A stretch of DNA of 40,639 nucleotides, taken from positions 1 through 40,639 of the forward strand of contig CACNFT010000007.1 of assembly GCA_902619825.1 (NCBI GenBank). Reading direction: 5' to 3'. This stretch comes from an uncultured Candidatus Actinomarina sp. (GTDB lineage: Bacteria > Actinomycetota > Acidimicrobiia > Actinomarinales > Actinomarinaceae). A program made the translations under genes and the position numbers. Position 1 is the stretch's first letter. Each line of letters begins with the position of its first letter. Below are positions 23,859-33,897 of the stretch, piece by piece. The notes under the pieces are model-generated. The model made no database searches. It was given only the letters and a program-made list of their open reading frames with translations, and was not told where the DNA came from.

Positions 23859-24006
23859 AATAAAGTAACAAAGCGAAGCTAGTGAGAATCTAGCACTGTC
23901 CCGCAACTGTGATTCGAAAGATAAGTCAGGTCGACTTTATTACTTTTTACAACAATCCTCGAGAGAAGGAATGGAGTATCGTACTTTTTCTCGTGGTGAG
24001 AAAGGA
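23859..24006 (+). promoter_or_regulatory. Cobalamin (B12) riboswitch with a translational expression platform
   Basis: The aptamer core contains the B12 box GTCCCGCAACTGTGA (23898-23912), preceded by GCTAGTGAGAATCTAGC, which fits the conserved GxxGGTGAGAATCCGGC hairpin. P1 is closed by AATAAAGT (23859-23866) with ACTTTATT (23934-23941). Downstream, TTTCTC (23987-23992) pairs with GAGAAA (23998-24003), burying the ribosome site AAAGGA (24001-24006). CTCGAGAGAAGG (23959-23970) could pair with CTTTTTCTCG instead, giving a competing form. This suggests B12 controls translation of the BtuF-like gene. The pairing scheme is by eye, not by folding software. Confidence 0.88.
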
Positions 24007-24010
24007 AAAT

Positions 24011-24982
24011 ATGAAAACAAAAATACTTCTTCTTGCCATGATAATTTCAATGTGTGGAGGCACATCTGACGAAGGTAATGAAAAAAACATTATTTCATTA
24101 TCAACCACCCATACAGAAATTATTCAAATGCTTGAAGCTGAGAACCAGCTAATTGGTGTTGATTCGTTCTCAGAGACAGAACTTCCAATAAAAAAAATAG
24201 ATGCCTATACAGTTACAGCAGATGAGCTTCTTTTACTCAATCCAGATATTGTAATCGTTGCTTTTGATTTTAACGGTATCGTAGAGGGATTAGAAAATTT
24301 AAATATTGAATATGCTCTTCTTCCACCTGCACAAAATTTGGATGACGTTTATTACCAAATTGAAACCATTGGGACAATTATTAACAAAGAAAATACAGCA
24401 AGTTCTCTAGTTTTAGAAATGAAATCTGACATTGATGAAATTATTGAAAACTCAGCAACTGAATCTATATCTGTTTATCACGAAATTGGTTACACATATG
24501 GCATATATTCAATAAATGAAAATTCTTTTTTAGGAGAAATTTACAATATTCTTGGTGTAAGCAATATTGCAGATAAGACTGAGGACCCGTACGGATCTGG
24601 TTATCCACTTCTTGAAGAAGAACAGGTCTTAAATGCAAACCCTGAACTAATCGTAATTGGACACTCTGACTTTTTGAATAAAGACATCTCAACAAGACAA
24701 GGATGGGAGGGTCTTAATGCCGTATCAAATGAGAATGTTTATTTCCTCGATGAAAACTTAGCAAATAATTGGGGTGTAAATACTGTTGATTTGATAAATA
24801 CATTATCTGAAATAACAAAATTTAATGAAGATCCTGGTTTAGTTTATAAAGCAAAATATTTAGAAAGTGATCTTGGGAGTTCAGACACTACTCAAAACAT
24901 CATCATTGCAACAATAATTGTGATAATCTTGACAGCGTACATACTTATTACGAGAAGGAATAAGAGTAAAGTACAAAGTTAA
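24011..24982 (+). CDS. btuF: BtuF-like cobalamin-binding protein with C-terminal membrane anchor
   Basis: 323 residues from the ATG at 24011, which has AAAGGA upstream; the frame is open further upstream, but that part is riboswitch. The N-terminal signal ends MIISMCGGTSDE, a weak lipobox with Cys15 after Met. The cluster A-II periplasmic-binding-protein fold shows IISLSTTHTEIIQMLEAENQLIGVDSFS, LLNPDIVIVAF and FLGEIYNILGVSNIAD. A hydrophobic segment near the C-terminus (about 291-312, NIIIATIIVIILTAYILI) followed by RRNKSK is a probable membrane anchor, which is unusual for the family. The riboswitch supports B12 or a corrinoid as ligand. No BtuC/BtuD gene is adjacent. Confidence 0.87.
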   Translation: MKTKILLLAMIISMCGGTSDEGNEKNIISLSTTHTEIIQMLEAENQLIGVDSFSETELPIKKIDAYTVTADELLLLNPDIVIVAFDFNGIVEGLENLNIEYALLPPAQNLDDVYYQIETIGTIINKENTASSLVLEMKSDIDEIIENSATESISVYHEIGYTYGIYSINENSFLGEIYNILGVSNIADKTEDPYGSGYPLLEEEQVLNANPELIVIGHSDFLNKDISTRQGWEGLNAVSNENVYFLDENLANNWGVNTVDLINTLSEITKFNEDPGLVYKAKYLESDLGSSDTTQNIIIATIIVIILTAYILITRRNKSKVQS

Positions 24983-27576: not shown

Positions 27577-28065
27577 ATGAAAAAAACAAACATACTTTTT
27601 TTTATTTTATTTTTTAATATTTGTAGTGGCTCAGAAAGTGGGGTTGTTTCAATTTCTGAAAATACAACAACAACCGAAATTATAAATGAAGAAGATTATC
27701 CAATAGTTTTAGCGAATTGCTTAAACGAAGAAATGGGATATAACATTGCAACTCCGTTTGATATACAAGATTTAAAATCAACAACTAGCCAATTAAGCAA
27801 CAATAAAAAAGAAGAGTCACAGTTAAGTGAAGATGTTGATTTTTGTATAAGTAAATATAATCTCTGGTCGGATTCATCTTCCTTGAATCCAGAAGAGCTT
27901 GCCAAAGTGTATGATGAAAATCTTGAATTAGCTAAATGCTTAAGAGAAAAGGGCCTAAATGTTCCTGATCCAATCCAACAAGAACCCAAGGTTGATTTAA
28001 GTGGGCTCAAGGAATCTAGAGATGATATTATGCCGTTGCTACAAGAGTGTGGTTGGCAAAAATAA
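27577..28065 (+). CDS. Cysteine-rich two-module secreted protein, paralogue A
   Basis: 162 residues. A signal-like N-terminus (MKKTNILFFILFFNIC) has a poor lipobox because Ile precedes Cys16. It is followed by GVVSISENTTTT, the GVVS linker shared with three neighbours. Module 1: LANCLNEEMGYNI, later DFCISKYNLW. Module 2: LAKCLREKGLNVPDP, later LQECGWQK. Each module has a Cys before an ExGY/ExG-type turn and a second Cys 39-54 residues on; the pattern predicts two disulfides or a ligand site. Actinobacteria have many secreted proteins with the CMRExGxxFPDP pattern; their function is unknown to me. First gene of the exporter block. Confidence 0.75.
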   Translation: MKKTNILFFILFFNICSGSESGVVSISENTTTTEIINEEDYPIVLANCLNEEMGYNIATPFDIQDLKSTTSQLSNNKKEESQLSEDVDFCISKYNLWSDSSSLNPEELAKVYDENLELAKCLREKGLNVPDPIQQEPKVDLSGLKESRDDIMPLLQECGWQK

Positions 28066-28101
28066 GAATTTAGTAAGAATTAAATTTGTATAATTAAAAA
28101 A

Positions 28102-28692
28102 ATGAAAAAATATTCAAACACTCTCTTAATACTTTTATTTATTTTTTTATTGGCGTGCACCTCATCAGATGAATCACAAGGAGTTGTTTCTACGAATGAT
28201 TTATCAAGCGATACAACAGTTACAACAATTGCAGAGGAAGTCGTTCAAGAGGTCGTTTCAGTAGAAGATGCGCAGCTTTTACTTGCTAGATGCTTAAGAG
28301 AGAATGGATATGATATTACAGATCCTAAAAATGATGAAAGCTTACAAAGTGTTTTACGTCCAGTATTTTTAGCAGCTGATCAAAAAGAGAGAGAGGAACT
28401 TTTTGAGACAATTCAAACATGTGCTGACGAAATTAATATTCCAATAGGTGGCACAGCAGACTTTGAGAATCCTGAAGAAGTTGCTGATAGATTAGACACT
28501 GAGTTGGAATTTGCACAATGCTTTCGAGAAAAGGGGATAGAGGTTGAAGACCCAAATGCTGAGAGACCTCTCAGATCTATTCTTATAAGCCTTGTGCAAT
28601 CTGGACAATACCTTGAAGATCAAATTAGACAAACTGCTGGAGAGTGCTTTGACGAACTTGGACTTGAACCACCACAACAAGGTGGAGGATAA
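28102..28692 (+). CDS. Cysteine-rich two-module lipoprotein, paralogue B
   Basis: 196 residues. A good lipoprotein signal (MKKYSNTLLILLFIFLLACTSS, Cys19) is followed by GVVSTNDLSSDTTV. Module 1: LLLARCLRENGYDITDPKND, later IQTCADEINIP. Module 2: FAQCFREKGIEVEDPN, later AGECFDELGLEPP. The two halves are clearly a tandem duplication. It is surface-exposed and anchored in the outer leaflet of the cytoplasmic membrane. TATAAT (28089-28094) lies seven bases before the ATG, so this gene has its own probable leaderless promoter inside the block. Function unknown. Confidence 0.82.
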   Translation: MKKYSNTLLILLFIFLLACTSSDESQGVVSTNDLSSDTTVTTIAEEVVQEVVSVEDAQLLLARCLRENGYDITDPKNDESLQSVLRPVFLAADQKEREELFETIQTCADEINIPIGGTADFENPEEVADRLDTELEFAQCFREKGIEVEDPNAERPLRSILISLVQSGQYLEDQIRQTAGECFDELGLEPPQQGGG

Positions 28693-28717
28693 GACTAAGA
28701 TTATTTATAATTTTCCT

Positions 28718-29317
28718 ATGTATAAAAAAGCTTCAGTAATACTTATTTTTCTAACAGCATGTTCTTTTTTCCAACAAGATGAGCAATCTGTTGTCTCTGT
28801 TGCAGACACTGATAAGGGGAAAGAGGCAATTGCTCTGGGTGTTGAGCTAGTAGATGAACGTGAAGAAATCTCAGATGAGGATGCACCTTTAGTCCTTGTT
28901 CAATGTGTTAATGAATCAGGGTATAAATTTAAAGAACCAAAGAACTTTATAGACCTATACACCACGATTGCATCATATTTTGAAACAATAACCGAACAGG
29001 AAGCCGAAGAACTCTGGGGCATAATTGAGGAGTGTGCCTTGAAATATAATTTATGGGGTGTAGCAGATGAAAATCAATTTGAAGATCCAGCAGAAGTATC
29101 CAAAGAAATTGATAGATCATTATTTATGGCGAAGTGTTTTAGAGAAAGTGGATATCCTAAAGTCCCAGACCCAGATTATTTCAATAGAGAAGTCAGATTA
29201 GATGCTTATATTGATGAAGATTGGGAGTTGAGAGAAGATGATCCATTAGTTCAGACATGGCAGGCATGTGAGGACAAATTACCAGAAGAGTTAAAAGATG
29301 AGGAGTGGGATGCATAA
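28718..29317 (+). CDS. Cysteine-rich two-module lipoprotein, paralogue C
   Basis: 199 residues from the ATG at 28718; the frame is open upstream into gene B, but only this start gives a signal peptide (MYKKASVILIFLTACSFF, Cys15). Linker SVVSVADTDKG. Module 1: LVQCVNESGYKFKEPKN, later IEECALKYNLWG. Module 2: MAKCFRESGYPKVPDPDY, later WQACEDKLPEEL. The segment after the second Cys (KYNLW) is shared with paralogue A. TATAAT at 28706-28711 lies six bases before the ATG. The protein is strongly acidic. Function unknown. Confidence 0.82.
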   Translation: MYKKASVILIFLTACSFFQQDEQSVVSVADTDKGKEAIALGVELVDEREEISDEDAPLVLVQCVNESGYKFKEPKNFIDLYTTIASYFETITEQEAEELWGIIEECALKYNLWGVADENQFEDPAEVSKEIDRSLFMAKCFRESGYPKVPDPDYFNREVRLDAYIDEDWELREDDPLVQTWQACEDKLPEELKDEEWDA

Positions 29318-29382
29318 AAAACTAAGTGAAAAACTTCTCAGAATACACATAGGTTTAATAAACTACACTAATTGGAACAACG

Positions 29383-30966
29383 ATGAAAAATATTTTTAAA
29401 TTAAAAAACTTGTACATTTTAATAGTGGTGCTGGCACTTGGTTATGGTGGATACTATTTTGGTACTCAGAACACAGAGACATCCTCAAGTAATAAAACTT
29501 TAGAGCTTACTACTGTTCCTATACAAAAAGGTGACTTAGCAAAGAAGGAAGAGTACAACGGAACCTTAAGACAGACTGATAGTAAAGTGCTCAACTCACC
29601 TATGTCAGGAGTTATTACCTTAATTCCCAAAGAAGGAACCATTATTAATTTTGGAGAGGTCTTATTTGCTGTAGACAATAAACCTGTAATTTTAGTTGAA
29701 GGAGCGACACCTTTTTATAGAACTCTTGATTTAAATTCTGATGCTGGTCCTGATGTTTTACAACTTGAGAAAGCACTTGTGTTTTTAGGATATGCAGCAG
29801 AAGATTTTGTACCTGATGAAACTTTTGATGAAACTACCTCAAATATGCTCAATGTACTTTATGTTGATTACAAAATTGATACAAAATCTGAAATTACACC
29901 AGCAGAACAGGTTGCTATTAATTTAAAAAAGACTGAAGTAGAAAATATTGAAGAGACAATTTCAGATGGTGGAACTACTTTGGCGCAAGTCAACGACAAA
30001 AAGAAAAAGCTAGATGATGCAAAAGATGCTGCTACGGAAGAAAGTGCAGCCTGGAAAGCAGCTGACACCGCTATTGAAAATGCTGAACAAAGCATTACCT
30101 TACTTCAAGACGATACGATTCCTGAAACAAAAGAAAAAATTGCAAATGGCACTAGAGACTCTGAAATAGAAGATCTACAGCAAGAGATTGAGAAACAAAA
30201 AAGAATTAAAGATTTAGAAAAAGGCAACGAATCTGGAATTGATGCCACAGAAGCATTAGCTATTGAAACAGCTCAAAAAGCATATGATGATACCTTAGAA
30301 AGCTACAACGAAGGAGTTGATCAAGCAGCTGAATTAGCAAAAGCAAAAGAAGAACTTGAAGAGTTAGAACTTGCCTCAAAGTCAGAAACCTTTAGCCCAA
30401 CAAACGCGTATGCATCAAAAACACCAATAATTGTAGGTTCTTATATTAACGACGTTGGTTCTGCGGTCGTACTAAATTCACCACTGTACAATATTTCTTC
30501 TATTGGAATTGAGGTTGTCTTTCAAGTTGATGCTACCGACCAGGAAACAGTTTCACTTGGTGACAGTGTTGAAATAGAACTTCCTACCGATGAAAGAGTC
30601 CCAACAGTTATCACATTTATTGACCAGGTTGTAACACAAACTCAGGCAGGAGAATTTATAGAAGTTACTCTAGAAGTTCTCAACCCAGAAGAGATTGAAG
30701 CTTATGATCAAGCTCCAGTAAAAGTATTTGTGACAACAGAGATTTCTGAAAATGTTCTTTATGTTCCTGTTAATGCTCTTCTTGCTTTAGCAGAAGGTGG
30801 ATATGCATTGGAAGTTTATGATGGAGAGCTTGGCAATGGAACATTTGAAGGAGAATCTGGAGTAGATACTAGCTATATTGCTGTTGAAATAGGCGTATTT
30901 ACTGATGGCTTTGTTGAAGTAATAGGAAATATCTCAGAGGGTCAACTTGTAGTTGTACCGCGATGA
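29383..30966 (+). CDS. MacA/HlyD-type adaptor with peptidoglycan-binding-like insert
   Basis: 527 residues. One N-terminal membrane anchor (about 9-28). A barrel/lipoyl half begins LTTVPIQKGDLAKKEEYNGTL and SGVITLIPKEGTIINFGEVLF. A PG_binding_1-like segment follows (about 118-165, DAGPDVLQLEKALVFLGY). Next is a long charged coiled coil (about 180-330, rich in E, K and A), then the second lipoyl/barrel half and a membrane-proximal domain (LYVPVNALLALAEGG). This is the usual adaptor of actinobacterial MacB-like exporters, bridging the permease to extracytoplasmic partners. It overlaps the ATPase gene by four bases. Nearby lipoproteins are obvious candidate partners or cargo. Confidence 0.88.
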   Translation: MKNIFKLKNLYILIVVLALGYGGYYFGTQNTETSSSNKTLELTTVPIQKGDLAKKEEYNGTLRQTDSKVLNSPMSGVITLIPKEGTIINFGEVLFAVDNKPVILVEGATPFYRTLDLNSDAGPDVLQLEKALVFLGYAAEDFVPDETFDETTSNMLNVLYVDYKIDTKSEITPAEQVAINLKKTEVENIEETISDGGTTLAQVNDKKKKLDDAKDAATEESAAWKAADTAIENAEQSITLLQDDTIPETKEKIANGTRDSEIEDLQQEIEKQKRIKDLEKGNESGIDATEALAIETAQKAYDDTLESYNEGVDQAAELAKAKEELEELELASKSETFSPTNAYASKTPIIVGSYINDVGSAVVLNSPLYNISSIGIEVVFQVDATDQETVSLGDSVEIELPTDERVPTVITFIDQVVTQTQAGEFIEVTLEVLNPEEIEAYDQAPVKVFVTTEISENVLYVPVNALLALAEGGYALEVYDGELGNGTFEGESGVDTSYIAVEIGVFTDGFVEVIGNISEGQLVVVPR

Positions 30967-31640
30967 AAACCGATACAAAAACTGTAATTTCAATCAATAA
31001 TATTTCTAAAGTTTATGAAGGGCCACCTCCTGTAAAAGCACTAGATGGAGTTTCTTTAAATGTTAAAGAAGGAGATCTGGTAGCAATTGTTGGACAATCT
31101 GGAAGTGGTAAATCAACTTTATTAAATATGATTGGCTTATTGGACAGTGTTTCTGGCGGTTCAATTGAAATAGAAGGCAAAGATATATCTGACCTAACAG
31201 ATAATGAACTTTCTAAATTTAGAGGCGAAAAAATAGGGTTCATTTTTCAAAGCTTTTTTCTTTTACCTGGATTAACCGCACAAGAGAATGTTGCAGAAGG
31301 ACTACTATATCAAGGGATTTCAAGGTCAGAAAGGCTAGAAAAAGCTGGAGAGGTTTTAGAACAAGTAGGACTCGGTGATAGGTTAAGCCACCTTCCTAAA
31401 GAACTTTCTGGTGGCCAGCAACAAAGAGTTGCTATTGCTAGAGCGCTAGTACAAGACCCAGCATTTGTTTTAGCAGATGAACCAACCGGAAATTTAGATA
31501 AAGAATCAGGAATAAATATTTTAAATATCTTAAAAGAACTTAATAACCAAGGAAAAACTGTAATTATGATTACTCACAATCAAGAGCATGCAAATATGTT
31601 TAAAAAAGTAATTGAATTGGTTGATGGAAAAATTGTGTAA
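30963..31640 (+). CDS. ABC transporter ATPase, MacB/LolD type
   Basis: 225 residues. Walker A GQSGSGKST, Q-loop IFQSFFLLPGLTAQENV, signature LSGGQQQRVAIARALV, Walker B FVLADEPTGNLD, and the H-loop MITHNQEH. The sequence class matches MacB/LolD/FtsE ATPases that power mechanotransmission rather than classical transport. It is translationally coupled to the adaptor by ATGA and followed after two bases by the permease. The three genes form a complete MacAB-like exporter with ATPase and permease on separate chains. Confidence 0.95.
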   Translation: MKTDTKTVISINNISKVYEGPPPVKALDGVSLNVKEGDLVAIVGQSGSGKSTLLNMIGLLDSVSGGSIEIEGKDISDLTDNELSKFRGEKIGFIFQSFFLLPGLTAQENVAEGLLYQGISRSERLEKAGEVLEQVGLGDRLSHLPKELSGGQQQRVAIARALVQDPAFVLADEPTGNLDKESGINILNILKELNNQGKTVIMITHNQEHANMFKKVIELVDGKIV

Positions 31641-31642
31641 AA

Positions 31643-32827
31643 ATGAAAAGAAAAAAACTAAGAACTAGAGATTTATTTTTTGTTGCACTTTATGGAGTTC
31701 GCGCAAGAAAAGGCAGAGCTACTCTTACGTCAATTGGAATTGGAATTGGAATAGCTGCAATAGTTGCAGTTTCTGGAATATCAGCATCTGGAAGGGCTGA
31801 CTTACTATCAACTCTTGAATCACTTGGAACAAATCTGGTAAAAGCTTCTCCTCAAGCAGGATTTTTTGGAACTCAAGAAGATTTACCAAAAGGAGTTCTA
31901 GGAATGGTTGAAAGAATTGGACCAGTTGAAGAAGTAACATCTACAACTCAGACTGATTTACTAGTTCGTAGAAGTGACTTTATATCAGAATTTGAAGGTG
32001 GGGGAATTTCAACAATAATTACAAGCGCAGAACTTTTAGATGTTATCGGAGGTAATCTTGTTGAAGGTAGGTTCATTACACCTGGTTTGTCTAATATACC
32101 TGTAACTGTATTAGGAAGCGTGACTGCTGAAAGACTTGGAATTACAAATCTTTCAACACCTACAAAGATTCTCATTGATAATGAATGGTTTGGAGTAATT
32201 GGAGTATTAGAAGAGCTTAAAATACATCCAGACTTAGATAGATCGGTATTTATAGGTTATGGAGTTGCAAAAACTCTTTTTAATATTGATGAGGAACCAA
32301 CAACGATTTATTTAAGAGCAAATCCAACTTTTATTGAGGATGTTGTTGAAGTGCTAGCTCCATCAATGAACCCTGAAAATCCTGATCAAGTAGAAGTTAC
32401 TAGACCCTCAGACGCACTTGAAGCGCAACAGGCAGCCGAAGAAGCATTTACTAATTTATTACTTGGGCTAGGTTCTGTAGCTCTTCTCGTTGGAGGTGTT
32501 GCCATAGCAAATGTAATGGTCATGTCTGTTCTTGAAAGAAGAATGGAAATAGGTGTAAGAAGATCAATTGGTGCAACCCGTAGAGAAATAAGATATCAAT
32601 TTTTATTAGAAAGTATAGTTTTATCAGGAATAGGAGGCCTTGTGGGTGTTGGCCTAGGTACTGTCATTACTTTGGCTTACACTAACTACACAGATATTGT
32701 ATTCTCAATACCGATATGGCAAATTTTAGGAGCAGTCTTTTTAGCGTTATTAATTGGAGCGATCTCAGGGGTATACCCGGCTATAAAAGCATCAAAAATA
32801 CAACCAGCGGAAGCAGTAAGAAAGTAA
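31643..32827 (+). CDS. ABC transporter permease, MacB/FtsX type
   Basis: 394 residues. The first membrane segment follows ARKGRATLTSIGIGIGIAAIV. A MacB_PCD extracytoplasmic domain covers about 50-260. Three C-terminal membrane segments include GGVAIANVMVMSVLERRMEIGVRRSIGATRREI, the conserved cytosolic helix that contacts the ATPase, and the end GVYPAIKASKIQPAEAVRK is canonical. It uses ATP-driven motion to move a substrate or lipoprotein at the outer face. The last 112 bases are overlapped in another frame by the next lipoprotein gene. Confidence 0.93.
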   Translation: MKRKKLRTRDLFFVALYGVRARKGRATLTSIGIGIGIAAIVAVSGISASGRADLLSTLESLGTNLVKASPQAGFFGTQEDLPKGVLGMVERIGPVEEVTSTTQTDLLVRRSDFISEFEGGGISTIITSAELLDVIGGNLVEGRFITPGLSNIPVTVLGSVTAERLGITNLSTPTKILIDNEWFGVIGVLEELKIHPDLDRSVFIGYGVAKTLFNIDEEPTTIYLRANPTFIEDVVEVLAPSMNPENPDQVEVTRPSDALEAQQAAEEAFTNLLLGLGSVALLVGGVAIANVMVMSVLERRMEIGVRRSIGATRREIRYQFLLESIVLSGIGGLVGVGLGTVITLAYTNYTDIVFSIPIWQILGAVFLALLIGAISGVYPAIKASKIQPAEAVRK

Positions 32828-33345
32828 TCTTCCTTGCTCTATTGGTTTCAGCCTGCACAATTGGTGAAGAAGAAACTAAGGGTGTAGTCTCACTTGAAGA
32901 TAGTGTATCCTCTACAACAATTATTGAGCAGGTAACTTTTGAAGAAGGTATTTTGAATTTTGCACAATGTATGAGAGAAGAAGGCATTGACTTTCCAGAC
33001 CCTTCATTTGATATAGATGGCAATCCAGAATTTGACAATTTAGATATTGAAAACGAAGAAGAATTTGAAGAAGCATTTACAAACTGTGAAGATATTTTGA
33101 GAAACGCTCTTCCTGATCAATTTGATCTTGATCCAGAAGTTGAGGCAGCCTTGGTTGATGCTTCATTAGAATTTTCAAAATGTATGAGAGATGAAGGTAT
33201 CAGCAACTTTCCTGACCCAACACCAGGTGAGTTTGGGTTTTTTGCTTTTAGAGATGCAGATATTGAATGGACTTCAAACGAGGTTCAAGAAGCATTTGAA
33301 ATTTGCCAACCAGAAAATCCTCTTGATTCGATAGGTGATGATTAA
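32716..33345 (+). CDS. Cysteine-rich two-module lipoprotein, paralogue D (start uncertain)
   Basis: Up to 209 residues. KKVIFLALLVSACTIG is a good lipoprotein signal, followed by GVVSLEDSVSSTTI, the linker shared with A-C. Module 1: FAQCMREEGIDFPDPSFD, later FTNCEDIL. Module 2: FSKCMRDEGISNFPDPTP, later FEICQPENP. The only ATG in frame upstream of the signal is 32716, which leaves an odd 36-residue lead and a 112-base overlap with the permease gene. A TATTCT ten bases before it could be a -10 element. An alternative is a non-standard start nearer the signal, or reading-frame change from the permease; I see no clear slippery site. The 3' end overlaps the convergent lipoprotein gene by four bases. 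Confidence 0.75.
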   Translation: MANFRSSLFSVINWSDLRGIPGYKSIKNTTSGSSKKVIFLALLVSACTIGEEETKGVVSLEDSVSSTTIIEQVTFEEGILNFAQCMREEGIDFPDPSFDIDGNPEFDNLDIENEEEFEEAFTNCEDILRNALPDQFDLDPEVEAALVDASLEFSKCMRDEGISNFPDPTPGEFGFFAFRDADIEWTSNEVQEAFEICQPENPLDSIGDD

Positions 33346-33809
33346 ATTCCTGAATCAAAATACATTGGTGGGCTTACTCCTATTGTCTGCCAACACAGGC
33401 CTTCAGTAATTTGACATTCATCATAAGTAAACACCCAAGTAACAACAAAATACTCATTTTTATTATTTAAAATTTTTATTTCATAATGAACCATCTCGCC
33501 ATCTTCTTGAATTACTTCATATGAGTAATCTGTCAAATCAACTATTGCGTTGTATGGAGCAGAAATAAGCATTGATTTAAATCTTCCAATTGGCCCGGTA
33601 ACCTCTTTATTGTCTTTGTGAGCATTATTCCAGATTATTTCAACAGCTTTATCTGGATCCGATGAGAAATTTCTATAGCTTTCCATTATCTCAATAAGAA
33701 CATCCTCAGAATCTTTTTGCTCAACTACAAGATCATTATCAGCATTTGTAGAATTACAACTGAATAAAAAAAAGATAATTAAAAATAATTTTTGAAACTT
33801 CTTATCCAC
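33342..33809 (-). CDS. Predicted lipoprotein, possible DUF4864-like fold
   Basis: 155 residues from GTG 33809. This start gives a compact signal MDKKFQKLFLIIFFLFSCNS (Cys18) and overlaps the stop of the upstream micro-ORF by eight bases; a TTG three codons earlier is possible. The mature part has EIMESYRNFSSDPDKAVEIIWNNAHKDNK, then GPIGRFKSMLISAPYNAIVDL and a C-terminal GLCWQTIGVSPPMYF. The GPxxRF..M..SPPY and CW.T..VSP pattern recalls DUF4864-type NTF2-like proteins, but I could not confirm it. Probably surface-anchored. Last gene of a leftward operon of tiny membrane proteins, convergent with paralogue D. Confidence 0.72.
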   Translation of the reverse strand: MDKKFQKLFLIIFFLFSCNSTNADNDLVVEQKDSEDVLIEIMESYRNFSSDPDKAVEIIWNNAHKDNKEVTGPIGRFKSMLISAPYNAIVDLTDYSYEVIQEDGEMVHYEIKILNNKNEYFVVTWVFTYDECQITEGLCWQTIGVSPPMYFDSGI

Positions 33810-33897
33810 TAAAAACAAGCGTCACAACTAAGTACAAATGCAGTAAGAAAGTTACAAAGAGAAATGACCAAAAAAGTCTTTTTTCTATTTTACTCAC
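33802..33897 (-). CDS. 31-residue single-helix membrane micro-protein
   Basis: Starts at GTG 33897 in a GTGA overlap with the preceding micro-ORF and ends inside the start of the lipoprotein gene. The product begins MSKIEKRLFWSFLFVTFLLH, continues LYLVVTL and ends FSG. It is one hydrophobic helix after a basic N-terminus, paralogous to the upstream gene (MSK-I/L-EKR-x-FW-x-F, then H-x-YLV). The stop-start overlaps at both ends and the paralogy are the evidence; on length alone it would be ignored. Confidence 0.6.
   Translation of the reverse strand: MSKIEKRLFWSFLFVTFLLHLYLVVTLVFSG

Follow-up and report, generated by a model that had tools for sequence, protein, structure and literature searches.

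The lipoprotein–exporter locus of Candidatus Actinomarina

Positions 27577–33345 of the window, by which we mean the entire 40,639-nucleotide stretch analysed here (contig C7 of an uncultured Candidatus Actinomarina genome of 1.08 Mb, 33% G+C and 90.6% completeness), hold only seven genes, all on the plus strand: those of three lipoproteins (A, B and C), an adaptor, an ATP-binding cassette (ABC) ATPase, a permease, and a fourth lipoprotein, D (Table 1). The subject of this analysis is the lipoprotein family and its association with the exporter encoded between its members. A search of the source genome with D returned exactly four places, all at this locus (E values: D 9e-115, B 1.5e-12, A 1.3e-9, C 1.1e-6), so that the paralogy pattern is not due to chance, and the alignment of the four proteins has 22 invariant columns, including the lipobox cysteine, V-V-S, two cysteines per module, and R, G and DP in module 2. 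These results bear out the initial annotation, which had described four paralogous two-module lipoproteins around an adaptor–ATPase–permease set; of the shared features it listed, V-V-S and the two cysteines per module hold throughout, whereas the motif it gave for every module fails in module 1 of A and C (CLNEEMGYNIATP, CVNESGYKFKEP) and the lipobox of A is atypical.

Within one protein, module 1 is a homologue of module 2 (profile-profile probability 99.5, E 2e-22). Since 171 of 173 family members contain exactly five cysteines, we infer one disulfide per module. In the AlphaFold2 model of B, each module comprises three helices with its cysteines in the first and third; the predicted local distance difference test (pLDDT) score is about 71–96 per 10-residue block in the modules, the linker is disordered, and the overall predicted template modelling score is only 0.46. 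The model thus predicts each module to be a three-helix bundle with one cysteine pair. Strong acidity is a further feature of the proteins (median net charge −30 and −24 for the modules, isoelectric point 4.05). Neither a profile search of the PDB nor a Foldseek search with the B model gave a significant solved chain (best Foldseek E 1.4); Pfam, NCBIfam and PADLOC scans of the lipoproteins gave nothing above cut-off, Pfam on 32 relatives gave weak, scattered matches only (best E 0.0016), and a phage search found no match. Public records call the lipoprotein ‘hypothetical protein’, and our literature search, which covered open-licence papers, found no account of it or of its unit.

Table 1. Coordinates of the genes and adaptor segments at the locus (window positions).
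Feature	Position	Strand	Remarks
Lipoprotein A	27577..28065	+	signal sequence; two Cys modules, the first degenerate; atypical lipobox FNIC
Lipoprotein B	28102..28692	+	lipobox LLAC; GVVS linker; two Cys modules, each a predicted three-helix bundle
Lipoprotein C	28718..29317	+	lipobox LTAC; SVVS linker; two Cys modules; start is ATG 28718, not TTG 28592
MacA/YknX-like adaptor	29383..30966	+	N-terminal membrane helix; weak match to TIGR00999
Peptidoglycan-binding-like adaptor segment	29740..29877	+	between lipoyl half-motifs; aligned to PF01471 domains
Coiled-coil hairpin of adaptor	29899..30375	+	helices 173–331 in the predicted model; alignment
ABC ATPase, MacB/LolD type	30963..31640	+	PF00005 5.6e-36
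MacB-type permease (MacB_PCD + FtsX), lipoprotein-linked subfamily	31643..32827	+	PF12704 1.6e-16; PF02687 7.7e-22
Lipoprotein D	32818..33345 (start approximate)	+	nearest of the four to the phylum consensus; start overlaps permease stop

The exporter and its adaptor

All three components of a MacAB-like exporter, namely permease, MacB-type ATPase and adaptor, are present at the locus. In actinobacterial adaptors, a PF01471 domain sits between the lipoyl half-motifs; 7 of 15 homologous adaptors match it, those of Actinomarina keep a degenerate version, and the window adaptor itself, about 30–35% identical to PF01471-containing adaptors, stays below Pfam detection. The peptidoglycan-binding-like insert proposed in the initial annotation is therefore real by homology, and the adaptor probably binds peptidoglycan, a property reported for purified YknX (PMC5985334). 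The segment is followed in Actinomarina adaptors by a coiled-coil insert considerably longer than 150 residues, which was not found in nine other actinobacterial adaptors that we aligned. The predicted structure, of low confidence (mean pLDDT 67), has an N-terminal helix (residues 8–29) and strands before and after the helical insert, which suggests a membrane-anchored adaptor with lipoyl and beta-barrel domains; some homologues have HlyD-type matches.

Among NCBIfam models the ATPase matches MacB best (1.4e-69) and LolD nearly as well (1e-66), both below equivalog cut-offs. The permease (394 amino acids) has one MacB_PCD and one FtsX domain, both above the Pfam cut-off, and also matches LolC/E at 1e-9; the macrolide equivalog of MacB (NF007826) was not reached, at 235 and 84.8 bits against a cut-off of 966 bits. 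Membership of the LolCDE fold family, together with the presence of several lipoproteins per exporter in Actinomarina, would be in line with the lipoproteins being cargo that a Lol-like exporter lifts off the membrane and delivers to the wall or surface. We regard this as quite improbable: the MacB and LolD models give similar scores, so that the homology does not point to lipoprotein release in particular; most exporters elsewhere in the phylum (see below) have a single lipoprotein, next to which lie a two-component system and a peptidoglycan-binding adaptor; and stand-alone lipoprotein copies exist in genomes such as G390, G409 and G414.

Linkage to one permease subfamily across the Actinomycetota

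The systematic search covered the Actinomycetota: 396 genomes were scanned with a lipoprotein profile from diverse members (threshold E 1e-5) and with a permease profile built from lipoprotein-linked loci, and 76 fetched neighbourhoods were compared along with 20 arbitrary control regions. The lipoprotein was found in 51 genomes and the linked permease subfamily in 42, counts obtained with an initial filter that scores only a few candidates per genome and from assemblies of which many are fragmented. Both were present in 41 genomes, the permease only in 1, the lipoprotein only in 10 and neither in 344 (Fisher p 5e-45); leaving out the genomes on which the lipoprotein profile was trained gave 30, 1 and 7 for the first three classes. 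Such co-occurrence with MacB-like operons had been suggested as a check in the initial annotation, and the modules indeed occur mostly with exporters and in non-random placement. Of 52 subfamily permeases, 44 have a same-strand lipoprotein gene no more than 7.5 kb away; for two of the other eight, a contig end interrupts the lipoprotein locus of the genome. Among 55 core lipoprotein loci, the adaptor is the next gene downstream in 45; an ATPase is present in 45, a permease in 44, and a histidine kinase plus response regulator in 37, compared with no adaptor or permease and a single kinase–regulator pair in the 20 control regions. We have thus shown a genetic link between the lipoprotein family and one MacB-like permease subfamily, whose adaptor is putatively peptidoglycan-binding; in most lineages, the link extends to a two-component pair of histidine kinase and response regulator. 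The fixed placement in relatives supports the earlier proposal of a functional partnership between lipoproteins and exporter; the unit as first described, exporter plus lipoproteins, was correct as far as it went but missed the frequent two-component system.

The permeases concerned score at least 495 bits against the profile and all others at most 299 (149 genomes); by this measure, the lipoprotein-linked subfamily looks natural and sharply bounded. The lipoprotein is not tied to MacB permeases in general, since of 149 genomes 137 have MacB_PCD but only 14 the lipoprotein; the linkage is confined to one subfamily. In Streptomyces plasmid records, the names assigned by the Prokaryotic Genome Annotation Pipeline read as a divergent response regulator and kinase, then ‘hypothetical protein’, ‘peptidoglycan-binding protein’, ABC ATPase and ABC permease. 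The usual unit has one lipoprotein, which Actinomarina has expanded to four; the system is a lineage expansion of a phylum-wide unit and not peculiar to this compact genome. That the neighbourhood has no functional meaning, adjacency having arisen by chance or shared inheritance, is barely credible: synteny by descent is to be expected in related genomes, and some copies are unlinked, but the linkage is kept across many families at very low sequence identity, a score gap separates linked from other permeases, and the phylum-wide test contradicts such a reading.

Genome G028 contains tandem and scattered lipoproteins with a FAEYERAVLATVEC-like helix (L123, L200, L122), pointing to a wider superfamily with cysteine pairs. 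Among the fetched neighbourhoods, these relatives had no exporter linkage, which limits the linkage to the core family.

Conservation within Actinomarina and the start of lipoprotein D

The loci closest to ours come from Candidatus Actinomarina, and relatives with full loci keep the order lipoproteins, adaptor, ATPase, permease, D. A sub-clade (L047, L056, L059) has two lipoproteins upstream instead of three. In the lipoprotein tree, the A, C and D clades are well supported and B moderately so, with D apart from A/B/C; branches are long and the deep order is unsure. As A, B, C and D each form a clade across the genus, the duplications would be older than most of the sampled Actinomarina radiation. 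Many relatives have no kinase–regulator pair at the locus; in L043, L049 and L073, A and B are separated by a histidine kinase, a response regulator and further genes. Beside the kinase and regulator, two of these loci encode a small secreted-looking protein reminiscent of CpxP/Spy-type stress proteins (L049:2700-3206; L043:2107-2637), a weak match to which also adjoins the unit in G028 (L105, E 6e-5). One frame that joins adaptor, binding-protein and aldolase-like pieces upstream of PFK (L068:1-1737) looks like a chimera of single-cell assembly.

Lipoprotein D has no canonical start codon close to its signal peptide, the candidates being GTA 32824, ATC 32827 and ATG 32716. Four relatives (L049, L056, L060, L061) have an ATG at or beside the TGA stop of the permease; in the window and most relatives, this codon is GTA or ATA and overlaps a TAA or TAG permease stop. 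In L047 and L059, the 60 codons upstream of the D lipobox are devoid of ATG and GTG (the one candidate in L059 is a TTG within the signal peptide), so that translation of D there seems to require either a −1 frameshift out of the permease or a non-standard start; elsewhere, an ATG 46–48 codons upstream offers an alternative. In a metagenome assembly (UBA1281), permease and D share one open frame (L057:385-2421), which represents either a fusion or a one-base assembly error.

Upstream of the region, the window contains dnaA, dnaN, gyrB and gyrA. The product of 23909-24982 has a PF01497 periplasmic-binding-protein domain followed by a C-terminal transmembrane helix and a basic tail, and is probably membrane-anchored at its C end. 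On the minus strand, a further small lipoprotein-like open reading frame (33342-33818), convergent with D, has no family match.

Proposed function of the lipoproteins

We propose, with about even confidence, that the four lipoproteins serve a MacAB-type exporter as dedicated extracytoplasmic subunits, which would capture substrate or provide docking, in a system responsive to antimicrobials. The kinase, where present, would sense an envelope-active compound, probably a peptide or another amphiphile, and induce the operon. The very acidic helical modules, probably disulfide-stabilised and held by their lipid at the outer membrane face, would capture the compound or dock on the adaptor or permease and thereby hand it to the exporter, which may then drive it outward through the wall-bound adaptor. 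In Actinomarina, duplication of the single lipoprotein to four may widen the ligand range or alter the stoichiometry. A stronger version, which we consider possible yet doubtful, is that a membrane-tethered two-module binding protein collects substrate from outside and feeds it to the MacB-type pump throughout the Actinomycetota, with four such receptors in a streamlined marine lineage; if true, such a protein would do for export what binding proteins do for ABC importers.

Several observations weigh against the proposed subunit role. For ten of the 55 core copies, no adaptor lies next to the lipoprotein (contig ends cut off two of these), stand-alone copies occur (L153, L157, L164, L187, L188), and the genomes share ancestry, so that the co-occurrence counts are not phylogenetically independent. 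Charge is weak evidence, since a low isoelectric point is common in marine proteins. Moreover, L159 and L183 combine the lipoprotein with a two-component system only, without an exporter, and these two core loci keep alive the notion that the lipoprotein is mainly a sensor accessory, like CseA for CseBC or CpxP for CpxA, which binds a ligand or the kinase and sets kinase activity, the exporter being the output. The weaker case L119 and the kinase–regulator pairs flanking two thirds of the core loci (37/55) fit this notion as well. We nevertheless judge it unlikely, as the exporter linkage is tighter (45/55), and as the source genome, with its four lipoproteins, has no orthologous kinase (at 90.6% completeness, a partial match of 32% identity on another contig was all that was found); in many relatives, too, the pair is absent from the locus. 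Because exporter and lipoproteins are kept, and the latter expanded, in such a genome, we favour the exporter over the kinase as the partner, although another kinase of the source genome could still serve the operon.

The fixed gene position next to the adaptor would also suit a ligand-free structural assembly factor that aids adaptor oligomerisation or wall anchoring, as YknW does for YknXYZ, a Bacillus exporter that needs a fourth protein (PMC4887032). The membrane-proximal G-V-[AV]-[ST] linker motif, found phylum-wide in 33 of 57 core proteins against a shuffled rate of 5%, suggests docking in this sense. Yet the motif is equally common without an exporter (6/10 unlinked versus 27/47 linked core copies), for which reason it was also rejected as a mark of exporter-linked copies; tandem cysteine modules and repeated duplication seem better suited to ligand binding than to a scaffold, and YknW is an unrelated Yip1-family membrane protein (PMC4887032). 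This alternative thus appears rather improbable to us, and we retain the exporter-subunit role, in which the unnamed lipoprotein family gains a specific partner and a testable function.

Comparison with known systems

LolCDE resembles the Actinomarina unit in the fold family of permease and ATPase and in the involvement of lipoproteins; it differs in that our unit has an adaptor and locus-specific lipoproteins, with no LolA-like carrier or outer membrane known. LanI with LanFEG (NisI/SpaI) likewise pairs a lipoprotein with an adjacent ABC exporter; LanFEG is not known to be of the MacB type. The lipoproteins NisI and SpaI are beta-sheet proteins, whereas the modules described here are predicted to be all-helical with cysteine pairs, and no PDB chain connected the two by sequence profile or fold. 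General scans of the window genes, made without a systematic search for lantibiotic genes, turned up none. In NisI–NisFEG, lipoprotein and exporter act together in a known immunity layout, and NisI consists of two similar tandem domains, one of them acidic and ligand-binding (PMC4828448). BceRS–BceAB, a two-component system beside a MacB-fold transporter, is a known layout of antimicrobial-peptide resistance (PMC5985334). BceB has ten helices, and Bce modules lack an adaptor or a lipoprotein of this kind, while the Actinomarina permease is of the short MacB type, comes with an adaptor and does not have the ten-helix form. As judged from these comparisons, the LanI and Bce likenesses are analogies, not memberships, and the LanI lipoproteins appear unrelated.

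A further likeness is to the Gram-positive MacAB-like pumps YknWXYZ and Spr0693-0695, which share the adaptor, the separate ATPase and the MacB-fold permease and for which a peptide toxin substrate has been proposed (PMC4887032; PMC5768738; PMC5985334). Here, the differences are that YknW is a Yip1-family membrane protein and not a lipoprotein (the Yip1 model in Pfam matched none of the seven genes of 27577-33345), and that the actinobacterial loci have PF01471 adaptors and usually a two-component system. We would class the lipoprotein as a new, uncharacterised part of an exporter type already known, rather than the whole as a categorically new system. What emerges is a sharply bounded actinobacterial exporter unit, usually a sensor pair, a lipoprotein, a putatively wall-binding adaptor and a pump, that is shared by antibiotic-producing Streptomyces and marine Actinomarina. 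If the lipoprotein is indeed a dedicated binding protein, the question of how Gram-positive MacAB pumps choose their substrates outside the membrane would become testable.

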